DNA from: Sarcodiotheca gaudichaudii | Taxonomy: Eukaryota > Rhodophyta > Florideophyceae > Gigartinales > Solieriaceae | Direction: 5' to 3' | DNA: 64,000 nt | Assembly (NCBI GenBank): GCA_032355985.1 | Contig: JAUKVZ010000003.1 | Span: forward strand, 423,841 to 487,840 | In this document: one piece after another, positions 56,489 through 64,000 of the stretch | Layout of the letters: every line of letters begins with the position of its first letter | How positions within the stretch are numbered: the stretch's first letter is position 1 | Translations under genes and position numbers: made by a program | Notes under the pieces: model-generated | The model's database searches: none | What the model was told of the DNA's origin: nothing | Seen by the model: the letters and a program-made list of their open reading frames with translations, nothing else

Positions 56489-56560
56489 GCGGGTGTAGTT
56501 CAGTGGTAGAACGTCAGCTTCCCAAGCTGAATGTCGCCGGTTCGAGTCCGGTCACCCGCT
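56489..56560 (+). tRNA. tRNA-Gly (anticodon CCC)
   Basis: Complete cloverleaf: acceptor GCGGGTG/CACCCGC, D arm GTTC...GAAC, anticodon stem TCAGC/GCTGA with loop TTCCCAA (anticodon CCC), T arm GCCGG-TTCGAGT-CCGGT, discriminator T. The 3' CCA is not encoded. A run of T follows. It serves as the chromosomal target of the integrated element that starts immediately downstream. Confidence 0.97.
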
Positions 56561-56575
56561 TTTTTCGTAAGTCTG
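56535..56575. mobile_element. Putative attachment site (left end) at the 3' part of tRNA-Gly
   Basis: The integrase gene begins 120 bases after the tRNA and points away from it, the standard layout for elements that insert into tRNA 3' ends. The crossover would lie within the T arm and acceptor (56535-56560). The second copy was looked for to 64000 and not found, so the right end lies outside the window. Confidence 0.55.
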
Positions 56576-56637
56576 GCTGATTCCGGGGGTTACGGAAACC
56601 TACCTTTGACAGGTGGTGCAGCCTGAAGCGCAAAACC

Positions 56638-56656
56638 GCGCGGTCATTAACCGCGC
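56638..56656. promoter_or_regulatory. Inverted repeat upstream of the integrase
   Basis: GCGCGGT (56638-56644) pairs with ACCGCGC (56650-56656) around CATTA; AACCGCGC also occurs twice as a direct repeat here. It could be an integrase arm site or an operator just ahead of the integrase start. Confidence 0.4.
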
Positions 56657-56679
56657 TGGGCGATTCAGGAGCACGACCG

Positions 56680-58020
56680 ATGTCAAGAGGACCTTCCTAT
56701 CGAAAACGCAAGGGCTACTCGCAGGCGCTGGTGACGCTGACCGACAGCGTGACGAAGCGCAGGCGGGATTACTGGCTCGGTGAATACGACACGCCGAAGA
56801 GCCGGGAGAAGTACCACCGGGTGATCGCTGCGTGGTACGCCTGCGGCAAGCGCTGGCCGGAGCTTGAAGACGAGCGGGACACAGAGCCCGACGCGCCCAA
56901 AGGCGGCCTGACGATCACGATTCTGATCGAGGCGTACTGGAGGCATGCGGAAGAGTACTACCAGCCGAACGAATCCGGCACGTTGCGTGTGGCGCTGCGG
57001 CTGTTGCGCGCACACTTCGGCTCACTTCCTGCCGAGGATTTCGGTCCGAAGCGGCTTCGGGACTTGCGCGAGGCCATGATCACCGGCGATCCGAATGCAA
57101 CGCCGCCGCGACCTACATGGTCGAGGAAGTACACCAACCAGCAGGTGCAGCGGATCAGGCGCATGTTCCGCTGGGCCGCGTCGCACGAGATGATTGCGGC
57201 GGACGTGCATCGGGCGCTGGAGACGGTTGAGTCGCTCAAGCGCGGGCGAACCCGTGCGCGGGAAGGGAAACGCGTCTTGCCCGCGCCGCCGGAGTTGATT
57301 GAAGCGGTGCGACCGTTCCTGAGCCGCCAAGTCAATGCGCTGATCGACCTGCAGTTGCTGACAGGCGCCCGGCCGGGGGAACTGATGCAGATGCGCCCTG
57401 TCGATCTGGAGCGGGACATCCCGTCTGACGTGTTGATGTACCGGCCGCGGGAGCACAAGAATCAGTTTCGCGGAATCGAACGAGTGATCTACCTGGGGCC
57501 GCGGGCGCAGGAGGTGATCGAGCCATTCCTGACGGGTCGCGCGGCGGACGCGTACCTGTTTAGCCCGACAGAAGCAGAGGCCGAGCGCCGGGCGGCAATC
57601 CATGCGGCGCGAAAGACGCCGCTGTCATGCGGAAACCGGCCGGGGACGAATCGTGTGGAGCGCGCGGCACGGAGCGCTGGCGATCACTACACGACACCGA
57701 GTTACTACGTGGCGATCCGTCGGGCGTGCGATCGGGCGTTTCCGCCGCCGGGAGCGCTGGCCAGACGGGACGATGAAACGGTCGCGGCGTGGCGGGCTCG
57801 GCTCACTTCCAAGCAGAGGGAAGAACTGAAGGAGTGGCAACGAGAGCATCGCTGGCATCCGCATCAGCTTCGGCACAACGCAGCGACGAGCATTCGCAGC
57901 GCGTTCGGACTGGAAGAATCGGCGCTTGTTCTTGGGCATTCGAGCGCGGTGTTGACGGACGCGGTGTATGCGGAGCGGGACGAGCGGAGGGTGTTGGAGG
58001 TGATGAGGGAAGTGGGGTGA
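56680..58020 (+). CDS. Tyrosine-type site-specific integrase
   Basis: A 446-residue recombinase with AGGAG upstream of the ATG. Residues 1-75 form a basic N-terminal arm-binding-type region (SYRKRKGYSQALVTLTDSVTKRRRDYWLGEY). A SAM-like core-binding domain lies at about 80-200. The catalytic domain has Arg I in 'LLTGARPGELMQMRPVDL' near residue 228, 'HPHQLRHNAATSIRSAFG' with His and Arg II near 393, and 'LGHSSAVLTDAVYAERD' with the final His and the nucleophilic Tyr near 430. All catalytic residues are present, so it should be active. It integrates the element into the adjacent tRNA-Gly. Confidence 0.95.
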   Translation: MSRGPSYRKRKGYSQALVTLTDSVTKRRRDYWLGEYDTPKSREKYHRVIAAWYACGKRWPELEDERDTEPDAPKGGLTITILIEAYWRHAEEYYQPNESGTLRVALRLLRAHFGSLPAEDFGPKRLRDLREAMITGDPNATPPRPTWSRKYTNQQVQRIRRMFRWAASHEMIAADVHRALETVESLKRGRTRAREGKRVLPAPPELIEAVRPFLSRQVNALIDLQLLTGARPGELMQMRPVDLERDIPSDVLMYRPREHKNQFRGIERVIYLGPRAQEVIEPFLTGRAADAYLFSPTEAEAERRAAIHAARKTPLSCGNRPGTNRVERAARSAGDHYTTPSYYVAIRRACDRAFPPPGALARRDDETVAAWRARLTSKQREELKEWQREHRWHPHQLRHNAATSIRSAFGLEESALVLGHSSAVLTDAVYAERDERRVLEVMREVG

Positions 58021-58271
58021 CACCTGCCATGGGCGCCACTTGAGGGTCTACGGCGTCAGATTTCGCGCCCGGTTGTTGCACTTTCCCGTGATTTGGCGGC
58101 GCCCGTACACAAAGTCGCTGGCACAGTCCGTCTGGAAATACCCATTGCGCCGGCGATGTGCGCGGCCGGCTCGCAGAGGACGACATGTAACTACGAGATT
58201 CTCGTTGCAAGCTCAAAAGTTGCGGGAGTTTAAGGACCTTCAAACCGGCACAGAGTGCCATGGAGGTCCAA
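58021..58271. promoter_or_regulatory. Spacer between integrase and the replication module, with possible promoter
   Basis: No gene is supported here. TTGCAA at 58205-58210 and TTTAAG at 58229-58234 (spacer 18) are a weak promoter candidate reading into the DUF1580-like and PrimPol genes. Confidence 0.35.
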
Positions 58272-58643
58272 ATGGATCAGCAGAAGTTAAACCAGAACGA
58301 GTACTTGACGCTTACGCAAGCGGCGAAGCGGGCGCCTGGGCGGCCGTCGCCGAGTTGCCTTTGGCGCTGGTGCCGCGACGGCGTGAAGGCCAAGACGGGC
58401 GAGCGCGTGCGTTTGATGCATACGCGCTTTGGCGGGCGGATCTTCACAACCGTGGAATGGCTGGATGCGTTCGGGCAAGAGTTGGCGGCCGCGGACGCGA
58501 AGCACTTTGAGCGGCGTCGGGAGACGGCTGATCGATGTCGCGATGAGCCGCGAAGTCGACGCGGTGGGCGGCGCGATTCCGAGAAGCGAATGCGCGATCG
58601 GCATGAGTGTGCGGCGCGTGAGCTTGAGGCGAAGGGTTTGTGA
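58272..58643 (+). CDS. DUF1580-like small DNA-binding protein (excisionase-like)
   Basis: A 123-residue protein. The ATG at 58272 is chosen because GGAGGT precedes it at the right distance. 'YLTLTQAAKRAPGRPSPSCLWRWCRDGVKAKTGERV' and 'TRFGGRIFTTVEWLDAF' match the DUF1580 pattern: a MerR/excisionase-like winged helix seen mainly in Planctomycetes next to integrases. The C-terminal half is highly charged (Arg/Glu/Asp) and probably helical or disordered. It overlaps the next start (TGATG), so translation is coupled. Likely roles are excision directionality or control of the replication gene. Confidence 0.85.
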   Translation: MDQQKLNQNEYLTLTQAAKRAPGRPSPSCLWRWCRDGVKAKTGERVRLMHTRFGGRIFTTVEWLDAFGQELAAADAKHFERRRETADRCRDEPRSRRGGRRDSEKRMRDRHECAARELEAKGL

Positions 58644-61219
58644 TGACTGATCAGCCCAAGCTCCACCCCGAAAACCTTCCGGCATATCAACGCGAACGCG
58701 ATCAATGGGTCTGTTGGGGCGGTCGCATGCCCGACGGCGCTATGAGCAAGATGCCGATCAATGTCATGACCAACCTGGCGGCAGACTCCACTGATTCATC
58801 CACGTGGTCAGACTTCGATTTGGCGCTCCAGATGGCTCAGGTGGATTCGACGGTCGGGGGTGTGGGATATGTGTTCAGCGCAGATGACTTCCTTACGGGA
58901 CTCGATCTCGACAACTGCGTCAATGAGCAAGGTGAGATTCATCCGGACGCCCGAGCGCTTGTTGATCGCTTCGCCAGTTACACCGAGTTCTCTCCCAGCG
59001 GCCGCGGTGTGCACATCATCATCAGGGCGGTGAAGCGAAGTAGCCGCTGCAAGTTCATGAATGTCTATGGCGCCGCAGCCGTGGAGGTTTATGACCAGGC
59101 GCGATACTTCACGATGACTGGTCGACATGTTGAAGGCACGCCGCGGACGATCGAGGACCGCCAGGATGTGTTGGATGAGCTGTTCGATGAGTTGGAGCCA
59201 CCGACACCGCGAGAGTCCAAGCGAACGACGCACACTGGCAAAGGCTTCGACGGCGATGACGACGCACTCATTGAGGCCGCGAGCAACGCGAAACGCGGCG
59301 ATATGTTTCGACGGCTTTGGGAAGGCGATACATCCGAGCATAACGATGATGACAGCGCTGCCGATCTTGGCCTTTGCAACCACTTGGCTTTCTGGACGGG
59401 GAGTGATGCGGATCGCATGGACAGGCTCTTCCGCCGGTCCGGCCTCTATCGAGAAAAGTGGGATGAAATGCGCGGCGATCAGACATACGGACAGATGACA
59501 ATTGAAAAAGCAATCAAAGGAACACGAGAGGCGTATTCACCGCCTCGAACGCGAGCGGCGCGCTGCAAGTCTGATGGGACCTGGTCTGTGCTCATTGGTG
59601 TTGATGAGCATCGTGTGATTGATGAGGTCGTGGAGGCTCTGAGTGCAGACAAGGAGCTCTTCTCGCGCGGCGGCGCGCTCGTCCGCGTGATCGACGACAA
59701 GACCAACCACAACGCGGAGACTAACCCGGCAGGTGCAGCGCGGATCTCGCTCGTCCCCACAGCCAATCTTCGAGATCGCCTGACACGGGCGGTCGAACTG
59801 ATGCGTCTCGACAAGCAAGACAATGAACATCCATCGCACCCGCCTGATTGGCTTGTCAAAGGCGTAGAGTCGCGAGGCGTTTGGCCGTCGATTCGAGGCC
59901 TTTCCGGCATCTCTGAAGCCCCCTTTCTGCGACCGGACGGCACAATCTGCCAAGCGCCCGGATATGACGAATCGACAGGCGTGCTCTTGCTGCCGTCGAT
60001 TGAGTTGGAGCTGATACCCGATCGCCCAACGCGTCAGGATGCCATCGAAGCGCGGGATGCGCTGCTTCATATTGTTGACGACTACCTCTTCGAAGGAGCT
60101 GAACACAAGGCCGCGTGGCTCGCAGCGCTCCTGACCCCGTTGGCACGACACGCTTTCACGGGTCCGGCGCCACTCTTTCTCGTGGATGCCAACGTCCGCG
60201 GCGCGGGCAAGGGAATCCTATGTCAAGTGATCGGCGAGATCGTTCAGGGCAGACCGATGCCAGTGTCGAGCTACTCCACTGATAGCCAAGAGATGAGGAA
60301 GAAGATTACGGCGATCGCAATCGCGGGCGATCCCCTCGTGCTGCTGGACAACGTTGATGGTGTGCTCGGCCACGACGCCATAGATCGAGCGCTAACGACC
60401 ACGCGCTGGCGAGATCGCATTCTTGGCAAGAGTGAACAGATCGATCTGCCGCTCACTTCCGTGTGGTATGCCACAGGCAATAACGTGCAGGTTGGCGCTG
60501 ACACCCTGCGCCGCATCATCCACATACGTCTCGATGTGCTTCACGAACGGCCGGAGGATCGCCGTGACTTCCAGCATCCTGACTTGGTGAACTGGACGCG
60601 CAGAAACCGAGCCCGCTTGCTTCGAAGCGCTCTGACAATCCTCGCTGCGTACAGCGCCGCGGGCCGTCCTCGGCAGGATGTGAGACCGATGGGCAGCTTC
60701 GAGGGCTGGTCACACCTTGTTCGCCAGGCTGTCCTGTGGCTTGACCTGACCGATCCATGCGCCGGTCGACAGCGCCTCGAAGACTTCGTCGACACATCGC
60801 GCGAGATGTTGGGCGACCTGCTCGAGGCAATCGAAGAGTATGACCCGGAGAATGAGGGATTTGTTCTCGGCGATTTGATCGCACAGCTCTATGGATCGGA
60901 GGATCACGGACACCGCATCCGGCCCCAGGCCAGTCGCCTCCGAACCGCGCTCGAACAGGTTGCCGGCGTTTCTCCTGGCAAGGTTCCATCCTCGCGATCG
61001 GTCGGCGCAAAGCTCAAGAGCTATAAGCGCCGCGTGGTCAGTAGCCGCTTCCTGGATATTGATCCGCATGCGCCGCGCCGGGGAGGCAGGCTTTGGCGGA
61101 TCTACTACATGGATGCGGGCTCTCAGCAGCGCGACGAGGCGACGCTCAAACCACAGTTCACAGCGCCGCCTGTGACGCCACCGCATGAAGAGCACGATTC
61201 GGATCGGGGCGCCGCGTGA
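58643..61219 (+). CDS. PrimPol-helicase fusion, NrS-1-polymerase-like
   Basis: An 858-residue replication protein. Residues ~10-165 look like an archaeo-eukaryotic-type primase/polymerase: 'FSADDFLTGLDLDNC' with the D-x-D metal motif near 88-90, 'YTEFSPSGRGVHIII' near 115-130 and 'ARYFTMTGRHV' near 155. A helical segment near 225-290 ('NHLAFWTGSDADRMDRLFRRS', 'YREKWDE') resembles the helical domain of phage NrS-1 polymerase. After a linker, residues ~510-680 form an ATPase: 'NVRGAGKGILCQVIGE', 'DPLVLLDNVDG', 'VWYATGNNVQVG'. The P-loop has Gly after Lys, where Ser/Thr is usual. It probably primes and unwinds DNA at the iteron region just downstream. Confidence 0.88.
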   Translation: MTDQPKLHPENLPAYQRERDQWVCWGGRMPDGAMSKMPINVMTNLAADSTDSSTWSDFDLALQMAQVDSTVGGVGYVFSADDFLTGLDLDNCVNEQGEIHPDARALVDRFASYTEFSPSGRGVHIIIRAVKRSSRCKFMNVYGAAAVEVYDQARYFTMTGRHVEGTPRTIEDRQDVLDELFDELEPPTPRESKRTTHTGKGFDGDDDALIEAASNAKRGDMFRRLWEGDTSEHNDDDSAADLGLCNHLAFWTGSDADRMDRLFRRSGLYREKWDEMRGDQTYGQMTIEKAIKGTREAYSPPRTRAARCKSDGTWSVLIGVDEHRVIDEVVEALSADKELFSRGGALVRVIDDKTNHNAETNPAGAARISLVPTANLRDRLTRAVELMRLDKQDNEHPSHPPDWLVKGVESRGVWPSIRGLSGISEAPFLRPDGTICQAPGYDESTGVLLLPSIELELIPDRPTRQDAIEARDALLHIVDDYLFEGAEHKAAWLAALLTPLARHAFTGPAPLFLVDANVRGAGKGILCQVIGEIVQGRPMPVSSYSTDSQEMRKKITAIAIAGDPLVLLDNVDGVLGHDAIDRALTTTRWRDRILGKSEQIDLPLTSVWYATGNNVQVGADTLRRIIHIRLDVLHERPEDRRDFQHPDLVNWTRRNRARLLRSALTILAAYSAAGRPRQDVRPMGSFEGWSHLVRQAVLWLDLTDPCAGRQRLEDFVDTSREMLGDLLEAIEEYDPENEGFVLGDLIAQLYGSEDHGHRIRPQASRLRTALEQVAGVSPGKVPSSRSVGAKLKSYKRRVVSSRFLDIDPHAPRRGGRLWRIYYMDAGSQQRDEATLKPQFTAPPVTPPHEEHDSDRGAA

Positions 61220-61220
61220 A

Positions 61221-61411
61221 TCACACAATCACAGAGTCACACCGAACCCCTCCTCAAAGCTCAGGAATGGCGATCCGCGTGATTCTGTGACTGTGTGACT
61301 GTGTGACTCTGATTCCAGCCCATCTCGAAATCGATTCGCGCGCTCCGAGCACGGCCGAATCGATTCTCGCATGGGGGGAAAAGTGAGTCACAGAATCACA
61401 GAGTCACACAA
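61221..61411. repeat. Iteron array with central inverted repeat, candidate replication origin of the element
   Basis: Three blocks of an 8-base repeat (consensus TCACA[CG]A[AG]). Forward units at 61221-61244 (TCACACAA, TCACAGAG, TCACACCG). Inverted units at 61279-61316 (on the minus strand TCACACAG twice, then TCACAGAA). Forward units again at 61388-61411 (TCACAGAA, TCACAGAG, TCACACAA). Between the last two blocks a perfect 10-base inverted repeat, AATCGATTCG at 61329-61338 and CGAATCGATT at 61356-61365. No frame is open through the region. Directly repeated 8-mers in phase beside a primase-helicase gene are the usual sign of an iteron-type origin. Confidence 0.7.
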
Positions 61412-61482
61412 CAGGACAGGCAAAGGCGCATCGCAGAGAGCGAGCATGCACGAGAGAGATCGATCCAAGGAAGGACAACACC

Positions 61483-62817
61483 ATGAAGATTGAAACGAGA
61501 CCGATTGACAAGATCACGCCCTACGAGGGTAATCCACGCGACAACGACGCCGCCACAGACGCTGTGGCCGAGAGCATGCGACGGTTCGGCATGCGGCAGC
61601 CGCTGGTTGTCGACGACATGGGCGTGATCGTCGCCGGTCACACGCGATGGAAGGCAGCGCAGTCGCTTGGGCTGGAGGAACTGCCCGTGCATGTCGCGAA
61701 GGATCTGACGCCTGAGGAGATTCGGGCGTATCGCATCGCTGACAACAAGACGGCTGAGCTTGCGCGCTGGAACCCCGATCTGCTTGAGTGCGAGCTTCAG
61801 GCGCTTGCCGAAGTCGGCATGGAGATCCCGGAGTGGGTGAAGCTCGGATTTGATGAGTCTGAGGTCGCGGCGCTGATCAACCCGGGATGCGCTACCGGCA
61901 TGACCGACCCTGACGAGGTTCCCGAACCTCCGGATGATCCGACGACGAAGCCTGGCGACCTGTGGGTCCTCGGCGAGCATCGTCTGCTCTGCGGCGACAG
62001 CGCGCTTGAAAGTGATGTCGATCGTTTGCTCGATTGCGAGCGCGTGCAAGTTGTGAGCACCGATCCGCCATACAACGTCTCGGTCGAGCCGCGAAGCAAC
62101 AACGCGATCGCGTCCGGCAAGTCGTCATTCCGCAAGTCAGGCGGCAAGGGCGGTCATCATCAGAAGTTCGATCTCGCTCGTGACCCCGAGAAGGCCAAGC
62201 CCACCGACAAGAAGATGCGCGCCAAAGACAGGCCGCTCGTCAATGACTTCGTGTCCGATGAGGAGTTCCAGCGACTGCTGCTGGCGTGGTTCGGCAATCT
62301 GGCGCGCGTGCTCGAACCTGGCCGTGCGTTCTACATCTGGGGCGGCTATGCGAACGTCGGCAACTATCCCCCTGCTCTCAAGTCGTGCAAACTCTACTTC
62401 AGCCAGGCGATCATCTGGCACAAGCTGCACCCGGTCCTGACGCGCAAGGACTTCATGGGCGATCACGAATGGTGCTTCTACGGCTGGCGCGAGGGCGCCG
62501 CACACAAGTTCTACGGGCCGAACAATGTGCCTGATGTATGGCCGGTGAAGAAGATCAATCCGCAAAGCATGGTCCATCTGACGGAGAAGCCCGTCGAACT
62601 GGCGACGCGCGCGATGGAGTACTCATCGAAGCCCGGCGAGGTTGTGCTGGATCTCTTTGGCGGGTCAGGCTCGACACTGATCGCCGCTGAGAAGGCTGGT
62701 CGCCGCGCGCGGCTGATGGAGATCGATCCTGCGTATTGCGATGTGATTGTGGAGCGGTGGGAGAAGTTCACGGGGAGGAAGGCGGAGCGGCCTTCTGGGG
62801 GTGTCCCGAACACATAG
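61483..62817 (+). CDS. ParB-like domain / DNA methyltransferase fusion
   Basis: A 444-residue protein with AGGAAGGA before the ATG. Residues 1-90 are a ParB/Srx-type domain: 'ITPYEGNPRDNDAATDAVAESMRRFGMRQPLVV', 'VIVAGHTRWKAAQSLGLEELPV'. A methyltransferase follows: 'STDPPYNVSVEPRS' with the DPPY catalytic motif near residue 192, a charged insert, and 'VLDLFGGSGSTLIAAEKAGRRARLMEIDPAYCDVIVERWEKFTG' as the SAM pocket near residue 390. The order (catalytic motif before SAM loop) is that of beta-class N4-cytosine or N6-adenine enzymes. Such fusions are common on phages and serve anti-restriction or regulation. No restriction gene is near. Confidence 0.93.
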   Translation: MKIETRPIDKITPYEGNPRDNDAATDAVAESMRRFGMRQPLVVDDMGVIVAGHTRWKAAQSLGLEELPVHVAKDLTPEEIRAYRIADNKTAELARWNPDLLECELQALAEVGMEIPEWVKLGFDESEVAALINPGCATGMTDPDEVPEPPDDPTTKPGDLWVLGEHRLLCGDSALESDVDRLLDCERVQVVSTDPPYNVSVEPRSNNAIASGKSSFRKSGGKGGHHQKFDLARDPEKAKPTDKKMRAKDRPLVNDFVSDEEFQRLLLAWFGNLARVLEPGRAFYIWGGYANVGNYPPALKSCKLYFSQAIIWHKLHPVLTRKDFMGDHEWCFYGWREGAAHKFYGPNNVPDVWPVKKINPQSMVHLTEKPVELATRAMEYSSKPGEVVLDLFGGSGSTLIAAEKAGRRARLMEIDPAYCDVIVERWEKFTGRKAERPSGGVPNT

Positions 62818-62822
62818 ACCCG

Positions 62823-62877
62823 CACTAAGAAAGGGTCCTTTCTTAGCGAGCATCACTAAGAAACGATCGTTTTCTAG
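62823..62877. promoter_or_regulatory. Two related palindromes, possible operators
   Basis: CACTAAGAAA occurs at 62823-62832 and 62854-62863. Each copy starts a palindrome: CTAAGAAAGG-GT-CCTTTCTTAG (62825-62846), and CTAAGAAACGATCGTTTTCTAG (62856-62877), centred on CGATCG and imperfect by one base. They lie between convergent genes. Confidence 0.55.
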
Positions 62878-62901
62878 AGCGGCCGCTGTGCGCCCTGAGA
62901 A

Positions 62902-62927
62902 AGACCCCGGATCTCACCGGGGCCTTT
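62902..62927. terminator. Terminator-like hairpin between convergent genes
   Basis: CCCCGG (62905-62910) pairs with CCGGGG (62917-62922) around ATCTCA and is followed by CCTTT; it can end the methyltransferase transcript. Confidence 0.6.
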
Positions 62928-62948
62928 GCGATCGAAAGGAGATCGCCC

Positions 62949-63425
62949 TCAGTGGGCGCTAGGGTCGTCGTCAGACCAATCCGACAATGTGACCCATGTA
63001 TCCAAGCACGCGCCGGATCGGGCCGCATAGTGCCGCCGCTTCACATCCCCTAGCCACCCCCTATCACGCATGAACATCAGCGCCACCGCCGCCCTCGACC
63101 ACGGCACGCTCGCGCTCCGCCGGATGTCCTCGAAGGTGAACGCCCGCCCCTCCAACTCATCAATGCAGCGGACGACCTGCTCGAAGTCCTCTCGCGAGCA
63201 TCGCTGCTCGTACGGCTCGCCGTGATTCGGTGTAACGCGGCGGATGAGTTCATCGTCCTCGATCGTGTATGAGGCGTCACCAGACGCCTGCGGCTCTTTC
63301 GCGCTGGCCACCACATGCTCCAGCGCATCCCACTCGTCCGTGGTCAGCATGTCGACCTCGCGCGCAGCGAGCAGTTCCTCCGCGGCACCGAGGACGGCCT
63401 TGAGTCGATCATCATGCGTGGCCAT
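62949..63425 (-). CDS. Hypothetical protein of the mobile element
   Basis: A 158-residue acidic protein; the start at 63425 overlaps the stop of the upstream gene (TGATG). The N-terminal half is helical ('LKAVLGAAEELLAAREVDMLTTDEWDALEHVV'). The C-terminal part ('FTFEDIRRSASVPWSRAAVALMFMRDRGWL') looks like a winged-helix module. No family is recognised. Its coupling to the HARE-HTH gene suggests that the two act together on DNA. Confidence 0.7.
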   Translation of the reverse strand: MATHDDRLKAVLGAAEELLAAREVDMLTTDEWDALEHVVASAKEPQASGDASYTIEDDELIRRVTPNHGEPYEQRCSREDFEQVVRCIDELEGRAFTFEDIRRSASVPWSRAAVALMFMRDRGWLGDVKRRHYAARSGACLDTWVTLSDWSDDDPSAH

Positions 63426-63832
63426 CACTGCGCCACCTTCCGTGCAATGAAGCGGCCGCGGTCGACCTTCTCGAAGCGCGCCTGTTTCCCCTTGCGCTCG
63501 ATCTCGCGAACGATGGCCGCGTACAGCGTGGCCTGCGGCGTCTTGCCTTTCGTCGTCCACATCCCTCCCGCGATCGCCTTCTGGACGATCTGCTTGCAGG
63601 ACATCGGCTCGGCTGACTTGGCGAGGATGTCGGCAGCGGCGTCAAGGATGCCTCGCTTCTTCGCCTTCGGTTTGCGGGCGCCCTGTTTGGCCCGTGTGGC
63701 GCCGGAGCGCTTCTTCGGCGTTGTGGCCGCGGACTTGGCGCCCTTGGGCCCACGGGCGGACGACGCGGCCCGTGTTGCGCGCTTGCGCGTTGACTTCTTC
63801 TTTGATGCTGCTGATTGCGTTCGCTTCGCCAT
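63425..63832 (-). CDS. HARE-HTH domain protein with histone H1-like Lys/Ala tail
   Basis: A 135-residue basic protein. The start at 63832 follows GGAG at 9 bases; an ATG at 63847 is an alternative. Residues 1-55 are Lys/Arg/Ala/Ser-rich ('AASKKKSTRKRATRAASSARG'), like bacterial H1-type or topoisomerase tails. The C-terminal ~75 residues match a HARE-HTH (HB1/ASXL/restriction-endonuclease HTH) domain: 'GILDAAADILAKSAEPMSCKQIVQKAIAGGMW', 'TPQATLYAAIVREIERKG' and 'FEKVDRGRFIARK'. It probably binds and compacts DNA or regulates the element. The pair reads toward the methyltransferase gene. Confidence 0.88.
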   Translation of the reverse strand: MAKRTQSAASKKKSTRKRATRAASSARGPKGAKSAATTPKKRSGATRAKQGARKPKAKKRGILDAAADILAKSAEPMSCKQIVQKAIAGGMWTTKGKTPQATLYAAIVREIERKGKQARFEKVDRGRFIARKVAQ

Positions 63833-63977
63833 GTTGCGTATCTCCATGTGAGTGTTGTGAACAGCCGCCTGCCTTCGGCGGCGCGAGTCACATGAAGGGG
63901 TCATGTCGCGCAGTCATCAAGGTGATTCTGCGCACATGCGCGGATAAAATGCGGCATGTCGACACGGAGGTCGGACC

Positions 63978-64000
63978 ATGCCCGGGCCAACAGTTGATGG
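63978..64000 (+). CDS. Start of a further gene, truncated by the window end
   Basis: An ATG at 63978 with GGAGGT at 63966-63971 opens a frame MPGPTVDG that runs off the window. The strong ribosome-binding site makes it credible. It is divergent from the HARE-HTH gene; the 145-base gap should hold both promoters (a TAAAAT box lies at 63945-63950). Product unknown. Confidence 0.5.

Follow-up and report, generated by a model that had tools for sequence, protein, structure and literature searches.

An integrated module at a tRNA-Gly(CCC) gene

The stretch of DNA considered here, which we call the window, is the whole of the 64,000 nucleotides at positions 423,841 to 487,840 of contig JAUKVZ010000003.1 (forward strand; assembly GCA_032355985.1, filed under Sarcodiotheca gaudichaudii; 61 contigs, 4.54 Mb). 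Its right side carries the left part of an integrative element, the nature of which is our subject. The module is cut off because the contig (C3, 487,840 bp) ends where the window ends. In what follows, C-numbers denote contigs of this genome, L-numbers the loci that were fetched, and G001, G002 and G004 other genomes; G001 is the genome of L014 (CP053450.1) and G002 that of L009 (JAHBWV010000001.1).

The integration target is a tRNA-Gly(CCC) gene, left intact (56489..56560, + strand, found with ARAGORN). Four genes follow on the + strand, then two on the − strand. The first codes for a tyrosine integrase of 446 residues (56680..58020; PF00589, phrog_1). Next come a DUF1580 protein (58260..58643, the start being possibly 58272; PF07618), which might be an excisionase or a regulator and matches phrog_66 weakly (E 0.009), a primase-polymerase (PrimPol; PF22763), and a ParB N-terminal domain fused to an N6/N4 DNA methyltransferase (61483..62817; PF02195, PF01555, phrog_498). 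Two palindromic repeats (62823..62877) separate the convergent genes. On the − strand lie a conserved small protein of about 158 residues (62949..63425), homologues of which adjoin HARE genes in other elements, and a HARE-HTH protein (63425..63832, the longest open reading frame (ORF) starting at 63904) with a K/A-rich N terminus and, from PF05066 and alignments, an architecture of the island type defined below. All six Pfam families named here pass the cut-off. Gene starts and ORFs on several loci come from a simple codon-usage caller of our own making; one earlier ORF set was greedy and included shadow ORFs.

An interpretation made from the letters alone, the sequence-only reading, had proposed just such a coherent module starting at the tRNA, and ARAGORN together with the Pfam and PHROG families confirms it for the integrase, the DUF1580 protein, the PrimPol-helicase and the ParB-methyltransferase. 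Of the HARE-HTH pair that it also proposed, one member stands (63425-63832), while its partner (62949-63425) has no match in Pfam or PHROG at E 0.1. Neither capsid, terminase nor conjugation gene had been seen in the first 7.4 kb; indeed, none of the six ORFs scanned there with Pfam and PHROG is structural or conjugative, and this part of the element has no large terminase (TerL), portal or head gene. No repressor family is matched among the window ORFs either, the integrase, DUF1580 and PrimPol genes all being on the + strand. What had to be given up is an argument from composition: the minus-strand pair was thought to be C-rich on the + strand, unlike the chromosome, and hence foreign. Its GC skews (−0.16 and −0.03) fall within the spread seen in 14 minus-strand calls of the chromosome (from −0.26 to 0.33, mean 0.07, 4 of 14 negative, some calls being perhaps wrong-stranded), and GC skew was therefore dropped as a sign of foreign origin. 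GC content at third codon positions is 0.73-0.82 in five of the six element genes, the chromosomal value being 0.76 ± 0.04; a low value (0.66) is seen in the PrimPol gene alone.

The PrimPol (58640..61219, + strand, 859 residues) is of the NrS-1 type (PF22763, E 8e-32; PHROG primases), with a C-terminal part that presumably deserves the name 'helicase', which is also a PHROG label. Residues D89 and D91 and the pair G523-K524 are invariant in 36 aligned sequences; we take the former to be catalytic and the latter to be Walker residues. Primases of known structure match the first 315 positions of the PrimPol profile. None of the 499 matching phage records and none of the 150 matching plasmid records covers the protein over 80%, all being partial matches. 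Just behind the gene, iteron-like repeats in 8-bp steps (61216..61417) form a probable origin. The sequence-only reading had noticed them, and they are real: the commonest 7-mer, both strands counted, occurs 6 times in 263 bases, which none of 200 shuffles reached, though the maximum of another run of 500 shuffles was also 6. This arrangement has the primase/rep-then-origin order of phage-inducible chromosomal islands (PICIs), the origin being putative here.

Attachment sites and arm sequences

The last 21 bases of the tRNA gene occur three times in the assembly: in the gene itself and at two tRNA-less sites of contig C8, both on the − strand. Around C8:149419-149439 the identity extends to 44 nt, and the corresponding window segment (56519..56562, + strand), which starts in the anticodon loop and runs two bases beyond the end of the gene, is the core of the left attachment site (attL). 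The copy at C8:145731 has 36 nt in common with the tRNA, shifted to its 3' side. A tRNA-adjacent integrase and a second att copy are both present, the latter on another contig. The sequence-only reading had suggested looking for this copy, and had named as the contrary outcome its absence along with conserved synteny in all relatives; the copy does exist, and the tRNA gene beside which the module is found varies from genome to genome.

The element arm of attL (56563..56656, + strand) consists of a CGTAAG..CTGA..ACC-like block and an inverted repeat, GCGCGGT (56638-56644) and ACCGCGC (56650-56656). Both are common to eight aligned sites spanning five tRNA species, Gly(CCC), Gly(TCC), Pro(CGG), Pro(TGG) and Ala(CGC); two of these sites belong to G002, one being its internal copy. 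Judged by eye, a GTGGTTT-like right-arm motif stands upstream of att in all five aligned copies, both C8 copies included. Such arm sequences are the places where integrases bind. In G001 the att repeat measures 49 nt, with copies 33.6 kb apart. In G002 a repeat of 46 nt is found at 34.7 kb, then one of 42 nt 30.8 kb further on, which makes two elements in tandem. Single fetched loci contained no att repeat, since their flanks are shorter than the elements. As far as sequences can tell, the 44-nt second att, the similar integrase arms and the presence of the same module at other tRNA genes strongly support an integrative element at this tRNA.

Between the two tRNA-Gly 3'-end copies of C8 (145731-149439; L005, L006) lies a 3.7-kb segment with a gene that resembles, by eye, a tricorn-type protease. 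With an arm motif at its right end, it looks like what is left of another island.

Relatives: one early module, two continuations

PrimPol relatives were found at 69 loci, 49 in genomes and 20 in viral contigs, which are partly non-independent (L030 and L072 are identical). In the viral contigs a single-sequence PrimPol scan had given no match, an alignment-based scan finding these loci later; an integrase scan gave none. Mapped over the 69 loci, the markers reveal one early module with two continuations. Probes for TerL match 15 loci, nine of which also match a portal probe. A probe for a protein resembling the small terminase (TerS) matches L008, L009, L010, L012, L014, L034, L054 and, weakly, L027. 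No locus matches both TerL and TerS-like probes, many of the contigs being short.

The island continuation can be followed in three complete elements, one in G001 and two (A and B) in G002 (33.6, 34.7 and 30.8 kb), read to their att. After the HARE gene, each has a TerS-like gene, small Cys-rich genes, variable genes, a second recombinase and cargo. TerL and portal probes find no match in them, and in a pooled scan of 50 of their proteins the 25 of 39 PHROG and 25 of 27 Pfam families listed include none for capsid, portal, tail, TerL or conjugation. The TerS-like protein matches PHROG small terminases (E about 1e-8); against solved structures, its profile and that of a 159-residue family reach at best E 0.8 and 0.16. 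TerS in the company of neither TerL nor a complete structural set is, we assume, a mark of PICIs, and by the probes and families used it fits all three elements; in the element of the window this segment falls into the assembly gap. Their cargo comprises an MmeI-type restriction system (G002-A), type I restriction and an Abi protein (G002-B), SRAP in both, and outer-membrane efflux (OEP, from reading translations) in G001; the pooled scan also gave reverse-transcriptase-type (Drt4) and Fic matches. The tandem islands of G002 (L088-L093), at a single tRNA-Pro, differ in cargo and have a similar cluster of SRAP and small genes after the recombinase. The G001 element has an integrase split over two frames (L014:5806-7276) and a frame change in its TerS-like gene (L014:16012-16401); this copy may be decaying or mis-sequenced.

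The sequence-only reading had hesitated between a satellite, an integrated plasmid and the early region of a prophage. A satellite-like island fits best, while a plasmid, or an integrative conjugative element, appears very improbable. Iterons, a ParB domain and a replication gene would be at home in it; yet no relaxase or type IV secretion family is seen in the six window ORFs, in the scanned C8 genes or among the families listed for the 50 proteins, and no plasmid record covers the PrimPol to 80% (0/150).

The prophage is a better rival. Prophages and phage contigs such as L050, L057, L058 and L066 have the PrimPol, ParB-methyltransferase and HARE genes in the same order and on the same strands, so that the window might hold the start of a similar genome, with TerL, portal and head genes to follow and contig C50 as its continuation. 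Module, TerL and portal do go together in 9 of the 69 loci, and the one TerL of this family in the genome is on C50, while the sole HARE match is on C3. The phage loci differ, however, in what follows and in one domain: TerL and portal come next, the DNA fetched has no match to the island TerS probe, and an extra HARE N-terminal domain is present in 11 of 12 TerL-bearing loci (a motif search located seven of these and visual inspection the other four; L063 is without it; L064, L065 and L068 share an identical methyltransferase and are not independent in this count). That domain is absent from all five islands and from the window. A quick PrimPol tree (56 rows, SH-aLRT branch support only) points the same way, placing the window in a group of eight (SH-aLRT 97) with the islands L008, L009, L010 and L014, with L012, which matches the TerS probe, and with the untyped L013 and L018. 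All four island PrimPols of the tree fall in this group; L057, a TerL locus and the closest relative by plain identity (52%), is just outside. A portal probe also found nothing in the genome of the window, an empty answer of this search being a weak negative, and between the end of C8 and its att there are recombinase and defence genes without head genes. By PrimPol tree and HARE architecture the element groups with the islands, and we regard a prophage as rather unlikely.

Contig C8 as the probable right part

Read inward from its end, in the orientation that att requires, C8 displays a tyrosine recombinase of 195 residues, a divergent MvaI/BcnI endonuclease, a C5 methylase that also matches DrmMII, then Vsr, a UvrD-like protein, DrmA, DrmB, further genes and att. 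This order, recombinase, cargo, att, is that of G001 and of both tandem elements of G002. We infer a layout in which the window is followed by an unassembled gap, then by C8 with its recombinase, its restriction and DISARM-like genes and attR. As the C8 part measures 24.5 kb and the window part 7.5 kb, the element would have at least 32 kb, plus the gap.

All 13 aligned copies of the second recombinase have, without variation, the residues usual for tyrosine recombinases, the assignment of these to sites being our assumption. In the genome of the window, small recombinases of this type, 86-88% identical, stand at three contig ends (C8:173264-173851, C24:88-654, C25:22734-23306), followed by restriction and DISARM-like genes on C8, type I restriction on C25 and nothing that gave a match on C24. 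C8 and C25 start with the same 77 bases, in the style of a de Bruijn branch, which prevents a sequence link between C3 and C8; the last 40 bases of C3 occur nowhere else in the assembly. In viral contigs the recombinase was found at two loci, neither matching any other marker. G004 has five strong matches to it (53-56% identity; L109, L112, L116, L120 and G004:C7:15098-15661), one of them followed by a type I restriction-like gene, judged by eye. A conserved site before this gene was considered and dropped, clear upstream similarity being limited to the G001 and G004 copies, and to the G002 copies, each among themselves.

These multiple copies invite another explanation, namely a tandem arrangement at the tRNA: C3 would hold one element, be it a prophage or an island, and the C8 att would close a second one, an island of its own with recombinase and defence genes. 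G002 does have two tandem elements at one tRNA-Pro, C8 carries two att copies, and the genome has three recombinases to one PrimPol match (a primase as divergent as that of G002-B would escape). Against this, the att 21-mer occurs only three times in the assembly and the left arm follows neither C8 copy; we consider tandem elements quite unlikely.

A proposed satellite-like defence island

Our preferred reading, to which we give a probability of about 0.7, is that of a satellite-like, non-conjugative, replication-competent defence island of a planctomycete, probably borne by a helper phage, with its left end in the window and its right part on C8. The sequences give good support to integration at the tRNA; the later steps are proposed from homology. 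The integrase would act at the 3' half of tRNA-Gly(CCC) and, with the DUF1580 protein, cut the element out. Copying by the PrimPol-helicase would begin at the iterons just behind its own gene, the ParB-methyltransferase may protect or partition the DNA, and the HARE and small proteins may regulate. The island would run on to C8, through the recombinase that has the catalytic domain only, the restriction enzyme and the DISARM-like genes, to the tRNA-Gly att copy as its end. Transfer would most likely occur in helper-phage particles, a TerS-like protein, seen in relatives only, steering DNA into helper heads. The helper need not be a TerL-bearing locus, because the TerS-like protein is unrelated, by the probes used, to anything there.

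Several observations weigh against this reading. The methyltransferase tree puts the window near L018, L013 and L014, a placement without resolution in a tree that does not separate the types. Repeats behind PrimPol also exist in some TerL-bearing loci, where they are significant, and iterons were dropped as an island-only mark; the GAGTC-like type is absent from L090, an island, and from several untyped loci. The only Pfam match of the TerS-like protein, HTH_Tnp_1_2, falls just under the cut-off, so that the protein may be no more than an HTH protein; the genome of the window gave no match to a TerS probe. The primase of G002-B is of a different type, outside the PrimPol tree. On C8, the last 9 kb or so before att have a host-like look (sigma factor, kinase, large surface-like proteins), the recombinase stands on three contig ends, and no sequence joins C3 to C8. 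Finally, an unlinked contig without HARE match carries a phage-type TerL (C50:6517-8181, − strand) 44% identical to the prophage type: it could come after the HARE gene, which is the prophage order, and possibly belongs either to a helper prophage or to a continuation of the element.

Well-studied satellites come from few bacterial groups. If the satellite-like reading is true, there would be a satellite-helper system in Planctomycetota, and with it a route for the movement of defence genes. The family has its replication module in common with prophages whose hosts are of the same kind, is found at several tRNA genes, and carries as cargo restriction, DISARM-like, reverse-transcriptase-type or efflux genes. 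A more speculative idea, which we find doubtful, is that it arose from resident prophages, keeping the phage replication module while a TerS-like gene replaced the head genes; the second recombinase would be a docking point for the exchange of defence operons between islands, several per genome.

Comparison with known systems

No full text combining 'phage satellite' with 'planctomycet' was found, most subscription papers being outside the coverage. Among the matches listed, titles and abstract beginnings on planctomycete satellites, tRNA-gene prophages and DISARM islands hold no description of such elements. Known satellite families are named in a review of hitcher elements, in the portion we could consult (PMC11389934).

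In the part of the literature accessible to us, PICIs are equipped with an att and an integrase, have an origin after their primase gene, carry TerS in some cases, and are usually about a third of the size of their helper (PMC6092414). The present element resembles them in its specific att, integrase, excisionase candidate and primase-type gene followed by a putative origin, and in the TerS-like gene of its relatives. It differs in size, relatives measuring 30.8-34.7 kb and the element itself probably at least 32 kb, so that the one-third proportion is not seen. It also differs in its NrS-1-type PrimPol, ParB-methylase, HARE protein, second recombinase and large defence cargo, and in having no recognised master repressor. 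The PICI plan includes a repressor with int to one side and divergent xis-pri-rep genes.

Tycheposons, set beside it by description, share a tRNA border, a tyrosine recombinase and cargo, and differ in lineage and in the nature of that cargo, according to the sections available (PMC10872708, PMC11389934). Comparable in architecture may be the Pseudomonas defence islands I55, I44 and I23, whose class, in the passages at hand, inserts at tRNA or tmRNA genes, with direct repeats and tyrosine recombinases and without transfer genes of its own (PMC12595487). I55 behaves like a satellite and owes its movement to a jumbo phage; I44 carries DISARM (PMC12595487). The word 'primase' is absent from the main text of that paper, a difference from the present element; if C8 is its right end, insertion at a tRNA, repeats, recombinases, defence cargo and the lack of transfer genes would be common to both.

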